NCBI GenBank assembly: GCA_001443495.1
Contig: LDXR01000010.1
Span: 54,402-89,200 of the forward strand
DNA length: 34,799 nucleotides
From: a candidate division NC10 bacterium CSP1-5
GTDB taxonomy: Bacteria > Methylomirabilota > Methylomirabilia > Methylomirabilales > CSP1-5
Direction of reading: 5' to 3'
Below, in pieces: positions 21,882-25,138 of this stretch. Under the pieces are notes generated by a model. The model was not told the DNA's origin. It searched no databases and worked only from the letters and a program-made list of their open reading frames with translations. A program made the position numbers and the translations under genes. Numbering within the stretch: position 1 is the first letter of the stretch; each line of letters opens with the position of its first letter.

Positions 21882-22628
21882 TCACCCTGACTGCGCAGAG
21901 GGTGCCGCTATCTGGCGAAGGTAGTGTCTGTACTGTGAGAGCCCCTCATCCTCCGCAAATCCAAGGAGCCGGAGGCCGTGGTGGAATCGCTCGCCCCCTA
22001 TCGTCTGGGGGTCATGCCATACGACAGTGCCCCTGGCGGTGATGGGGCCCTGGGGGAGTCCCAGCCCGAGGCGAAGGGGTGTTCCTGCCGCCAACATTTC
22101 TGGCAGCAAGACCGATAAACCGCCGAGGCTCACGTTGCCCGTGTGCCCCACCACTCCTCGGGTCGTTCCTGCATCGCCGCGGACGAAGCACCAAACCGGA
22201 ATCTCTGCCGGGTGACGGGGATGCCGCCGCCGGCGCTGCATCGGGGTGTCTTTCTCCGCACGCTCCGCGGCCAACTCTACGACGCGGAGAAGGCTCGCGG
22301 CACGAAAGGGCTTCGGCAGGAAAAAGAGCGCCCCCGCCCGAAAGGCCTTCTCGGCGTATGTCAGGTCCGATGAGGCCGTGATGGCGATCACCGGAATATC
22401 TTTGACTACAGGGTCTCGTTTCAGGGTTTGCAAGGTGTTGATGCCGTCGATACCGGGCATCATCATATCCAGGATGATGACAGCAGGACGTGCCGTGCGC
22501 GCCAGCTCGATCCCCGACGCACCATCGGCGGCCGAAAGGACCTCGAAGTCCGCTTCGCCTAGAATAGCACTGACCAGCTCAAGCGAGTGGGGATCGTCGT
22601 CAATGACCAAGATCGGCCGGTTCCGCAT
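21882..22628 (-). CDS. Response regulator receiver with C-terminal PilZ domain (2)
   Basis: A 248-residue tandem paralogue of the preceding gene. The receiver is intact: acidic residues in VIDDDP, phospho-acceptor Asp54 in IILDMMMPGIDG, Thr84 in AITASSD and Lys106 in FLPKPF. The PilZ domain again has RRRRHPRHP and NVSLGGLS. The ATG at 22628 follows GAGGGAGACT. It probably receives a phosphoryl group from an unlinked histidine kinase (none is in the window) and binds c-di-GMP, so it may combine two signals. I found no clear promoter of either type directly upstream. Confidence 0.92.
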   Translation of the reverse strand: MRNRPILVIDDDPHSLELVSAILGEADFEVLSAADGASGIELARTARPAVIILDMMMPGIDGINTLQTLKRDPVVKDIPVIAITASSDLTYAEKAFRAGALFFLPKPFRAASLLRVVELAAERAEKDTPMQRRRRHPRHPAEIPVWCFVRGDAGTTRGVVGHTGNVSLGGLSVLLPEMLAAGTPLRLGLGLPQGPITARGTVVWHDPQTIGGERFHHGLRLLGFAEDEGLSQYRHYLRQIAAPSAQSG

Positions 22629-22709
22629 AGTCTCCCTCGTGATGCACTCTTGGCCGCTTAGGCGCAATGCAAGAGCTATGTTGGCGGCAGGGCTGGAGGT
22701 CGTCGGTCA

Positions 22710-22770: not shown

Positions 22771-22882
22771 GAAGCGCCAACGAGGGTGACACAGGAGCTA
22801 TGCTTACCCCGGTACCATCACGCATCTCCTTGCGTAAGTATGCCCCGCTGGGAAAGGGATGTCAAGGGTCGAAAAAGCTGAT

Positions 22883-22898
22883 TGGCATCCGGGTTGCA
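22883..22898 (+). promoter_or_regulatory. Sigma-54 promoter upstream of receiver-PilZ gene 3
   Basis: TGGCATCCGGGTTGCA matches TGGCAC-N5-TTGCW except one base. Transcripts would begin near 22909, which leaves out the GGAGGT at 22900-22905 and favours the GTG start at 22932. Confidence 0.55.
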
Positions 22899-22913
22899 CG
22901 GAGGTCGCTCGAC

Positions 22914-23654
22914 ATGCTCAGCGAGGACGCAGTGCGGACAGGACCCATTCTCGTCATCGACGACGATCAAGTCGTACGGGAGCTGGTGAGATCGGTGCTC
23001 ACTGGCGCCGGCTACAAGGTCCTTGAGGCTTTCGGGGGCCAGGAAGGGATTGAAGTCGCCCGAAAGACTCAGCCCATCATCATCCTCTTAAGGATCATGA
23101 TGTCAGGCGTGCACGGGATCGGGACGTGCGAGCGCCTCAAGAGAGATGCCGTCCTGCACGATATCCCCGTGGTGGGGGTCACAGACTCGCATGACCTGGC
23201 GGATACCGAGCGAGCCTTTCGGGCTGGGGCGGAGTTCTTTCTGGCAAAGCCCATTGGGGCGGAGAGCCTGCTTCAGGTGGTCGGCATGGCCCTGGAGCGC
23301 GCCGAAAGGCGCAGCCCCAGTCAGCGATTGCATCCGCGGTTTCGGGCTCGGGTTCCCGTCCGGTGCGTCCTCGGCACAGATGCTGAGGTCGTAGGGACCA
23401 CGGGGAACCTGAGTCTCGGGGGCCTCCTGCTGATGCTGCCGAAAAAGCTGGCAACCGGGGCCGTGTTTCGCCTTGGGCTGGAGCTTCCCAAGGGGCTTGT
23501 CCCGGCTGAGGGGGCCGTGATGTGGGAGCGATCCCAGCCCTTGGATGACGGGAGCTTCCTCCACGGGATAAGATTCTTGCGCTTTGAAGAGGACACCGGG
23601 CCGATGCAATATCGATGTTTCCTCAGCGAAATCGCCGCGAGCAGTCCTGCCTAG
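22914..23654 (+). CDS. Receiver-like domain without phospho-acceptor, fused to PilZ (3)
   Basis: The third receiver-PilZ paralogue, transcribed away from the other two. Counting from the start shared with its paralogues (MRTGPILVIDDD, GTG 22932), position 54 is Arg (IILLRIMMSGVHG) where the others have the phospho-acceptor Asp. The acidic VIDDD and the Lys in FLAKPI remain. It should therefore be a pseudo-receiver that cannot be phosphorylated in the usual way. The PilZ part keeps RLHPRFRARVP and NLSLGGLLL, so c-di-GMP binding is still plausible. ATG 22914 has GGAGGT eight bases before it; GTG 22932 has GAGGAC and fits the sigma-54 start. The two differ by six residues. Confidence 0.87.
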   Translation: MLSEDAVRTGPILVIDDDQVVRELVRSVLTGAGYKVLEAFGGQEGIEVARKTQPIIILLRIMMSGVHGIGTCERLKRDAVLHDIPVVGVTDSHDLADTERAFRAGAEFFLAKPIGAESLLQVVGMALERAERRSPSQRLHPRFRARVPVRCVLGTDAEVVGTTGNLSLGGLLLMLPKKLATGAVFRLGLELPKGLVPAEGAVMWERSQPLDDGSFLHGIRFLRFEEDTGPMQYRCFLSEIAASSPA

Positions 23655-23880: not shown

Positions 23881-24894
23881 TTATAATGTGCGGCCGAGGG
23901 CCCTGGCGATCGGGTCGAGCTGGCGCATCAGCTCCTGGAACCGGGCGGGGGTCAGCGACTGCACCCCGTCGGATAACGCCTCTTCAGGTTTGGGATGGAC
24001 CTCGACCATGAGGCCATCGGCCCCGGCGGCGATCGCGGCCCGTGCCATGGCCGTCACGTACTCCCAGTGTCCCGTTCCGTGGCTCGGGTCCGCGATGACC
24101 GGCAGATGGGTCAGCTTTTGCAGGACAGGAACAGCATTGAGATCCAACGTGAAGCGAGTCGCGGTCTCGAAGGTCCGAATCCCACGCTCGCAAAGGATGA
24201 CGTCGTAGTTTTCATGCGAGAGGATATACTCCGCCGACATCAGGAGGTCCTGAATGGTGGCCGACATGCCGCGCTTGAGGAGGACTGGCTTTCGCACCTC
24301 GCCGACCGCGTTCAAGAGGGCAAAGTTTTGCATGTTCCGCGCCCCGACCTGGAGAATGTCGGCATACCGGGCCACCAGCTCCACATCCTGGGGATTGAGG
24401 ACCTCGGTGACGATCTTGAGGCCGGTTGTCTCCCGAGCAAGCGCCAGCATTTTCAGTCCCTGCTCGCCGAGTCCTTGGAAGCTATAGGGTGACGTCCGTG
24501 GCTTGAAGGCACCCCCGCGCAGGATGGTGGCCCCGGCCGCCTTGACCGCGTGTGCGCACTCCAGTATTTGGCCCTCGCTCTCCACCGAGCAGGGCCCAGC
24601 CATGACCACGAGACGGTCAGAGCCGATTTCGACCTCGCCGATCTTGACCACCGTCTTCGGTCGAAACTCCCGACTGGCCAGCTTGAACGGCTGCAGGATC
24701 CGAACGACGCTTTCAACGCCCGGCAGCGCTTCCAGGCTCTGGAGCCTCGCTTTGCCTCGCTCATCGCCCACCGCCCCGACCACGTTGCGCTGGGTCCCCC
24801 GGATCAGGTGGGGATGGTATCCTAGTTGTTCGACGCGCCTGAGGACCTGCTGGAGTTCCTCTTCCGGCGCCCCTGCCTGCATCACGATAATCAT
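23881..24894 (-). CDS. aroF: 3-deoxy-7-phosphoheptulonate (DAHP) synthase, class I beta
   Basis: DAHP synthase condenses phosphoenolpyruvate with erythrose 4-phosphate, the first step of the shikimate pathway to Trp, Phe and Tyr. At 337 residues it has an N-terminal ferredoxin-like/ACT-like regulatory domain (about 1-70) as in the Thermotoga-type enzymes, then the barrel with MAGPCSVES (residues 98-106), [17 protein letters not shown] (127-143), [19 protein letters not shown] and [10 protein letters not shown]. The N-terminal domain implies feedback inhibition by an aromatic amino acid. The ATG at 24894 follows GGAGGAAGGCG. A leader peptide and attenuator lie just upstream, so expression also responds to aromatic supply. 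Confidence 0.96.
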
Positions 24895-24903
24895 CGCCTT
24901 CCT

Positions 24904-24977
24904 CCAAAAGAGAAAGCCACGGGATCACCGTGGCCCTGAAGATACAAAAGCCACGGAGGCTTGCCTGCCCCCGCGGC
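24904..24977 (-). promoter_or_regulatory. Transcription attenuator of the DAHP synthase gene
   Basis: On the minus strand four pairable segments occur in order: GCCGCGG (24977-24971), CCGTGGC (24956-24950), GCCACGG (24934-24928) and CCGTGGC (24922-24916), then TTTCTCTTTT. Segments 3 and 4 form a 7-bp hairpin with a 5-base loop before the U-rich run, an intrinsic terminator. Segments 2 and 3 can pair instead (antiterminator), and segments 1 and 2 can pair to release the terminator. Also CTGCCCTC inside the leader-peptide gene (25022-25015) can pair with GGGGGCAG (24972-24965), breaking the 1:2 pair. The structure ends just before the ribosome site of the synthase gene. Confidence 0.8.
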
Positions 24978-24997
24978 CATCCTCGACGATAAAAGGG

Positions 24998-25069
24998 TCA
25001 GGCGCCGCCGATCGGAGGGCAGACGCCGCTAAAGTAAAACCACCAACTCCAGAGATGCCTCAGATCCAT
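24998..25069 (-). CDS. Aromatic-rich leader peptide, 23 aa
   Basis: ATG at 25069 behind AAGGAAGACGGAG, stop TGA at 25000-24998. The peptide reads MDLRH and then LWSWWFYF: Trp at codons 7, 9 and 10, Phe at 11 and 13, Tyr at 12; it ends SGVCPPIGGA. Six of seven residues in a row are aromatic, matching the products of the pathway that the downstream DAHP synthase begins. It lies between a plausible promoter and a terminator with competing hairpins, as in the trp and phe leader peptides of enterobacteria. Its job would be to make ribosomes stall when charged Trp, Phe or Tyr tRNA is scarce. Too short for usual gene callers. Confidence 0.85.
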   Translation of the reverse strand: MDLRHLWSWWFYFSGVCPPIGGA

Positions 25070-25100
25070 CTCCGTCTTCCTTGAAGGAGTTCCCAACGAT

Positions 25101-25138
25101 GTGGTACTCTAGTTACCACCACCGCTCCGGCTTGTCAA
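25101..25138 (-). promoter_or_regulatory. Promoter and palindromic operator of the aroF leader
   Basis: On the minus strand TTGACA (25138-25133) is followed after 17 nt by TAACTA (25115-25110), a weak -10. Over the -10 lies GTGGTA-7 nt-TACCAC (25119-25101), a perfect 6-bp inverted repeat, a good place for a repressor. The start would be near 25103, 34 nt before the leader peptide. Confidence 0.5.

Follow-up and report, generated by a model that had tools for sequence, protein, structure and literature searches.

Most of the known leader-peptide attenuators come from Proteobacteria and Actinobacteria. In the his attenuator, which comprises the segments A to F, stalling of the ribosome frees the pairings B:C and D:E, and completion of the peptide gives C:D and the terminator E:F. 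The leaders trpL and pheL of E. coli have cognate codons in the leader peptide, and an antiterminator 2:3 is set against a terminator 3:4. The DAHP synthase of C. glutamicum is of another type than the enzyme described below. Its gene is preceded by an F-Y-F leader responsive to Phe (PMC4046766, PMC11802643, PMC7356990), the aroR-aroF attenuator (Neshat et al., 2014, as cited in PMC11802643; earlier mention in PMC4046766), in which stalling under Phe limitation raises transcription. For Acholeplasma, uORFC-13-1 upstream of aroF is a predicted upstream open reading frame with Phe codons and a terminator, with 24 representatives (PMC8632094). An aromatic leader ahead of DAHP synthase is thus known in C. 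glutamicum and predicted in Acholeplasma; the kind of element described here is already known, while the lineage and architecture of our attenuator are new. The literature that we searched contained neither an aromatic DAHP synthase leader in this phylum nor a leader of pyruvate phosphate dikinase (PPDK); subscription journals lay mostly outside this search, and the absence is weak evidence.

The window is the whole stretch of 34,799 nucleotides that we analysed, taken from a genome of 2.77 Mb in 40 contigs. It contains a gene for a type I-beta DAHP synthase, with a DAHP_synth_1 barrel of the B. subtilis/Thermotoga type. The protein matches the Pfam families PF00793 (1.4e-82) and PF18152 (1.9e-22), exceeds the cut-off of the NCBIfam models PRK08673 and TIGR01361, and has 4grs and 1rzm/3pg9 as its nearest solved chains (8e-110 for 1rzm). 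Two similar frames adjoin the gene back to back (21882-22667, minus strand; 22800-23654, plus strand), and in each an apparent response-regulator receiver precedes a PilZ-like part. The DNA upstream of the gene very probably encodes a ribosome-controlled transcription attenuator, through which transcription of DAHP synthase would respond when charged aromatic tRNAs become scarce. Its features, in the order of transcription, are as follows.

25133..25138, minus strand: TTGACA, candidate -35 of the leader promoter (-10 uncertain), read in the sequence
25076..25082, minus strand: AAGGAAG, ribosome-binding site of the leader gene, 6 nt upstream of the ATG
24998..25069, minus strand: leader peptide gene, 23 codons, MDLRHLWSWWFYFSGVCPPIGGA and stop; an open frame with the conserved ending and an aromatic cluster
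25051-25031, minus strand: regulatory codons W7, W9, W10, F11, Y12 and F13
25015..25024, minus strand: segment 0, GTCTGCCCTC, within codons V16-C17-P18-P19; its partner is segment 1
24963..24972, minus strand: core of segment 1, GGGGGCAGGC, partner of segment 0, overlapping the 5' arm of hairpin 1
24949..24978, minus strand: hairpin 1 (1:2), GGCCGCGGGGGC / GCCTCCGTGGCT, followed by a weak U-run
24947..24956, minus strand: segment 2, CCGTGGCTTT, antiterminator pairing with segment 3
24928..24937, minus strand: segment 3, AGGGCCACGG, common to the antiterminator 2:3 and the terminator 3:4
24906..24937, minus strand: terminator hairpin 3:4, AGGGCCACGG / CCGTGGCTTT, with the U-rich tail TTTCTCTTTT
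24901..24905, minus strand: GGAGG, ribosome-binding site of DAHP synthase, read in the sequence
23881..24894, minus strand: DAHP synthase, type I-beta, 337 aa, with an N-terminal ferredoxin-like domain

An earlier note on this DNA had reported a 23-codon frame behind a strong ribosome site, with Trp at codons 7, 9 and 10 and Phe-Tyr-Phe at codons 11-13, and five elements of the minus strand running from GCCGCGG to TTTCTCTTTT. The frame is present in this form, behind AAGGAAG, and the elements occur in the reported order and places (GCCGCGG 24977-24971, CCGTGGC 24956-24950, GCCACGG 24934-24928, CCGTGGC 24922-24916, TTTCTCTTTT 24915-24906). The arm that it had noticed inside the peptide gene, CTGCCCTC (25022-25015), indeed complements GGGGGCAG (24972-24965), and the helix is longer than claimed, growing to GTCTGCCCTC/GGGGGCAGGC (25024-25015 with 24972-24963). 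The leader RNA is a chain of the pairings 0:1, 1:2, 2:3 and 3:4 in which neighbouring helices are mutually exclusive. The note's reading as an attenuator is largely right, with refinements: the segments number five instead of four, the in-gene GTCTGCCC is the most informative of them, and the topology is his-like.

From the window sequence alone, the case for an attenuator is moderate. A terminator scan found two main hairpins, of 12 and 10 pairs, and the region has 4 terminator-like matches against 0.5 expected. The fold energy of the window's leader is not decisive (z = -1.58), and about 5% of shuffled downstream regions contain a match equal to the real pairing of segment 0. The leader promoter is only partly convincing: TTGACA is kept in the same-genus orthologues and in most related leaders, and a sigma-70 scan of the window's leader found no full site at threshold. 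We accept the leader as real because it is conserved in 58 loci, all with a pairing partner in the first hairpin. Conservation among orthologues was also the check that the earlier note had proposed, and both peptide and pairings are kept in these loci, compensatory changes included.

The orthologues come from a class of 95 species, probably Methylomirabilota (Methylomirabilales and Rokubacteriales), through which DAHP synthase was traced by genus, order and class and the upstream DNA compared. One order of this class consists of small genomes, among them a closed one of 2.8 Mb, and the genomes of a sister group are larger. The 58 leaders, two of which were added by hand, belong to 28 genera, and most of the related genomes examined have kept one; the attenuator is thus widespread in an uncultured, environmentally important class. 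Examples are MNGRRLWQGWWYFSGVCPPVGGA (L003), MDFRHLRRWRFYFSGVCPPVGAT (L005), MQRTRWAWRFFFSGVCPVGAGTGRR (L102), MRVNRMTSYYFWFSFTGVCPLGSRRRMS (L106), MGSQVRRSGFFFFYFAEVCPGALS (L136) and MGRLVRWSGFFFYFYFAEVRPGALS (L138). The leader is missing mainly where DAHP synthase directly follows an apparent atpC, as in most of family f6. In this family, L107, L109-L115 and L117 have DAHP synthase behind an apparent ATP synthase epsilon gene and no leader, and G028 alone retains the leader among the orthologues compared.

Second copies of tandem DAHP synthase genes also stand without a leader. In tandem pairs of the type I-beta gene (G078, G086, G087, G084, G072, G080, G093 and others), it precedes the first copy only. 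A check of paralogue B, which is 60% identical and follows a hisC-like gene, turned up no leader; two regex matches at this paralogue (L010, L012) were discarded, as they are reading frames inside the upstream gene. In G003 (L006 / L272), DAHP synthase is still preceded by the promoter and by terminator hairpin 2, but the leader gene and hairpin 1 have been deleted. In G013, a match to the covariance model of the element lies ~1.4 kb ahead of DAHP synthase. Family f2 has no hairpin 2 and its hairpin 1 is itself terminator-like, which looks like a shorter version of the same switch.

An aromatic cluster and an ending of the type F-x-x-V-[C/R/Y]-P characterise the 58 leader peptides. The 12 codons before V-C-P include Phe in 58/58 leaders, Tyr in 54/58 and Trp in 33/58. 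Counted from the V of V-C-P, position -3 is F in 57/58 leaders, position -4 is Y or F in 50/58, and aromatic residues occupy most of the positions -5 to -9. Both synonymous codons are used for Phe (TTC/TTT) and for Tyr (TAC/TAT), which indicates that the aromatic positions are kept as amino acids. With the RNA frame unchanged, the coded aromatics move between Phe/Tyr and Trp, and so form a natural series.

The earlier note had read the leader mainly as a Trp signal, with perhaps a contribution of Phe and Tyr. 'Trp sensor' is too narrow a name, because Phe is universal, Tyr is common, and Trp is constant only in the window's order (12/12 leaders, compared to 21/46 of the others). An alternative explanation might be that the attenuator senses Phe (and Tyr) and that the Trp codons of the window's genus are tolerated extras. 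The class-wide counts of the three amino acids favour this explanation, as does the F-Y-F leader of C. glutamicum aroR, which is responsive to Phe but insensitive to Tyr (PMC11802643). Yet, each of the 12 leaders in the window's order contains one Trp or more, at positions -5 to -9 counted from the pairing segment, and so rare a codon would hardly be kept unselected. We therefore consider it a possible but rather unlikely explanation. Our preferred reading is that Phe/Tyr would be the constant signal throughout the class, with Trp apparently fixed in the window's lineage. As far as can be judged from the codons, stalling in the window's species may occur at Trp, Tyr and Phe alike.

Downstream of the aromatic codons, bases rather than residues are kept. 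Segment 0 (GTCTGCCC, codons V-C-P) is paired at 8/8 positions with its hairpin 1 partner GGGC[AG]GAC in 52/58 loci. Residues encoded under this segment vary (C/R/Y, P/S/L/H, V/A) and the pairing is mostly kept, with a mismatch inside 0:1 in L004 and L104. Third bases are fixed inside segment 0 (C in 58/58 and 57/58) and variable just outside it. The helix 0:1 shows compensatory change from U-A to C-G, including cases in which Cys becomes Arg: a TGC codon (Cys) faces A or G, and a CGC codon (Arg) faces G in 12/12 and never A (Fisher p = 0.002, relatedness ignored). Likewise, in L158 a change from V to A is accompanied by a change in the partner. Half of the peptide gene is thus conserved as amino acids and half as RNA pairing, and this conservation lets the mechanism be read off the sequence.

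The ending of the peptide appears conserved as F-x-x-V-[CR]-P, which might suggest ligand sensing by the nascent chain, with an arrest peptide around F-S-G-V-C-P, instead of slow decoding. However, substitutions of Cys, Val and Pro leave the pairing intact, and the aromatic positions vary in both number and spacing. RNA pairing accounts for the conserved V-C-P, and we reject an arrest peptide as very improbable.

Further support for the chain of pairings comes from an alignment of 26 loci. For 0:1 together with 2:3, 98.1% of the cells are paired, against 39-49%, and 48.5% at most, with the partner shifted by 1-3 columns; for 1:2 together with 3:4, the values are 96.6% and at most 51.9%. The covariation scores of 0.154 and 0.199, respectively, were each matched in 0/500 shuffles, where covariation counts are sequences and not independent events. 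Columns 73/99/126/144 occur as GCGC, AUGC, AUAU, GUAU, GUGC and AUGU across the four hairpin arms; this co-variation in all four arms means that the helices 1:2, 2:3 and 3:4 all survive. The 2:3 helix has 8-12 bp in 55/55 loci with two hairpins, and the terminator 3:4 shows two-sided changes in 4/10 pairs of alignment A1. Segment 3 can thus pair with segment 2 or segment 4, with covariation for both, and the antiterminator and the intrinsic terminator are mutually exclusive.

Two terminator-like hairpins with near-identical arms could also be just intrinsic terminators in tandem, shielding the gene from transcription that enters from upstream, with a small frame present by chance. This has hardly any probability left, since the frame, the aromatic codons and the 0:1 pairing are kept across 28 genera, and hairpin 1 of the Rokubacteriales-like group has no U-run. 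Equally negligible is a switch that binds a protein or tRNA (TRAP-like or T-box) instead of depending on ribosome position: other phyla use T-boxes or TRAP for the same job, but a search of Rfam (Trp, Phe and His leaders, T-box) returned no match in the window at gathering score, the leader alone gave just two unrelated sub-threshold sRNA matches (E 0.3 and 0.72), and the conserved reading frame would be left unexplained.

For the ribosome-controlled attenuator, we propose the following course of events. When charged aromatic tRNA is short, the ribosome would stall at the W/F/Y codons 7-12 and leave segment 0 (codons 16-19) uncovered. Segment 0 could then capture the emerging segment 1 and break hairpin 1, and the freed segment 2 would pair with segment 3, so that the terminator 3:4 is blocked and the DAHP synthase gene is read. 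Conversely, once translation of the peptide is complete, the ribosome would rest at the stop codon and overlie the 3' part of segment 0, between segments 0 and 1; hairpin 1 would form, followed by 3:4, and transcription would end. In the Rokubacteriales-like loci the first hairpin starts ~10 nt past the stop codon, which is the usual reach of a ribosome. An extra hairpin at the end of the peptide gene (GGCGUCUGCC / GGCGGCGCC) that would sequester segment 0 was considered and dropped; by eye, it is strong only in L002 and L102.

This mechanism is well supported for the RNA and inferred for the ribosome and amino-acid steps. For 55 loci, we calculated equilibrium partition functions of the transcript truncated after segment 3. 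In the window, the probability of 2:3 is 0.86 with a stalled ribosome and 0.01 with one that has reached the stop codon. Stalling favours 2:3 in 55/55 loci, but with the ribosome at the stop codon 2:3 is still favoured in 27/55, and hence about half of the orthologues switch at equilibrium. In the other loci, the off state must rest on folding order or on details of the footprint. With a scrambled segment 0, 2:3 is still favoured in 45/55 loci at equilibrium (0.33 in the window). Because this control is weak, the equilibrium switch is not strong evidence, and the ribosome step counts as inferred. The stop codon lies 11 codons past V in L102, L105, L106, L108 and L172. Families f2 and f3 have their stop codon three codons further off, and in all these leaders a terminating ribosome would leave segment 0 uncovered.

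In its topology, the element resembles the his attenuator more than the trp attenuator. Segments 0-4 of the window map onto B-F of the enterobacterial his attenuator, and as in the his type, 0:1 and 2:3 exclude 1:2 and 3:4. By this analogy it would correspond to the his attenuator minus its first segment; inspection by eye recognised no conserved upstream partner of segment 0 as a counterpart of segment A. The two differ in that the codons are for His there and for aromatic amino acids here, where DAHP synthase is controlled. Cognate codons and a 2:3 antiterminator opposed to a 3:4 terminator are shared with trpL and pheL of E. coli, but there the stalled ribosome covers the arm that blocks the antiterminator, whereas here it would leave a needed arm uncovered. 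Among the DAHP synthase leaders, C. glutamicum aroR-aroF belongs to another phylum, and the passages on it in PMC4046766 and PMC11802643 contain no five-segment chain with a pairing segment inside the gene; this comparison is by description. The same applies to Acholeplasma uORFC-13-1, which likewise has its Phe-codon frame before a terminator and a DAHP synthase gene, but in another phylum, and whose consensus was compared by description.

Start signals vary among the leaders. In Rokubacteriales-type leaders (e.g., L139, L150, L144), a -10 box TAGAGT ends 9-13 nt before the ATG and there is no ribosome site, so that the mRNA of the leader peptide is probably leaderless, judging by the spacing. 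A subgroup of this type that mostly starts with GTG has ~30 nt plus a ribosome site instead. Translation of a leader peptide without a ribosome-binding site has been described for C. glutamicum ilvB (Morbach et al., 2000, as cited in PMC4046766), and is predicted for many Rokubacteriales-like leaders. It differs from our locus in serving the branched-chain pathway, and the window's leader has a ribosome-binding site.

A covariance model of the DAHP synthase element was used to look for sister elements; the window's own genome was searched with this model and one BLAST. Most genomes contain a second set of full-length matches, of about 45-70 bits. Of the Rokubacteriales-type loci examined in this set, 26/27 stand before PPDK. 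Their leaders are mostly Leu-rich and end in LPGLPGASAx, for example ...LILLALPGLPGASA and stop. The same pairing chain is present in the Rokubacteriales-type PPDK loci L197-L202, L205, L247-L264 and L266. Pairing between leader and hairpin 1 covaries as GCAUCCG:CGGAUGC, GCGUCC:GGACGC and GCAUCCC:GGGAUGC, and further as CCUGCCC:GGGCAGG and CCCGCCC:GGGCGGG.

In the window's order, the corresponding leaders are Val-rich (...VVVGV...), e.g., MTRMIQMAVVGVRGLCPPADGP, with the segment 0/hairpin pairing and a terminator. They precede genes for a sigma-54 regulator (f2), a malate-synthase-like enzyme (f3) and a small Cys-rich protein (the window's genus). These Val-rich loci are G000:C6:116480-116640 (L267), in the window's own genome, and L206-L213. 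Other matches in G000 (C2, C10:27301, C7) score 24-28 bits, and inspection of C2 and C7 found no convincing leader. These patterns suggest, with the balance of probability on its side, that one RNA scaffold has been reused in the phylum with exchanged sensor peptides: aromatic for DAHP synthase, Leu for PPDK and Val for other genes. The alternative to such a shared ancestry would be convergence on a favourable GC-rich chain. If the scaffold was reused, amino-acid supply would directly gate enzymes of central carbon (PEP) metabolism, and the PPDK elements would couple this supply to the formation of PEP.

Several type I-beta DAHP synthase genes of Acidobacteriota also have aromatic leader frames, e.g., MVVSFTYSFTFRFWHFA and MACFYASSFSYRFWHFA, each followed by a stop codon (loci L050, L053, L056, L064, L077, L080, L088 and L101). 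Here, GAGTGG[CT]GTTGG right after the stop is able to pair with CCAACCCACTC, which doubles as the 5' arm of a terminator, CCCACTC..GAGTGGGTTTT. The resulting arrangement has three segments, GAGTGGCGTTGG / CCAACCCACTC / GAGTGGGTTTT, and amounts to a simpler attenuator of probably independent origin. Other phyla were screened for aromatic frames before DAHP synthase as well, and outside Acidobacteriota most of these look like chance. In one Chloroflexi locus (L078), a strongly aromatic frame, MRFFAYFSYFWFNYFTHRKASLLLAN, lies about 320-240 nt upstream of DAHP synthase.
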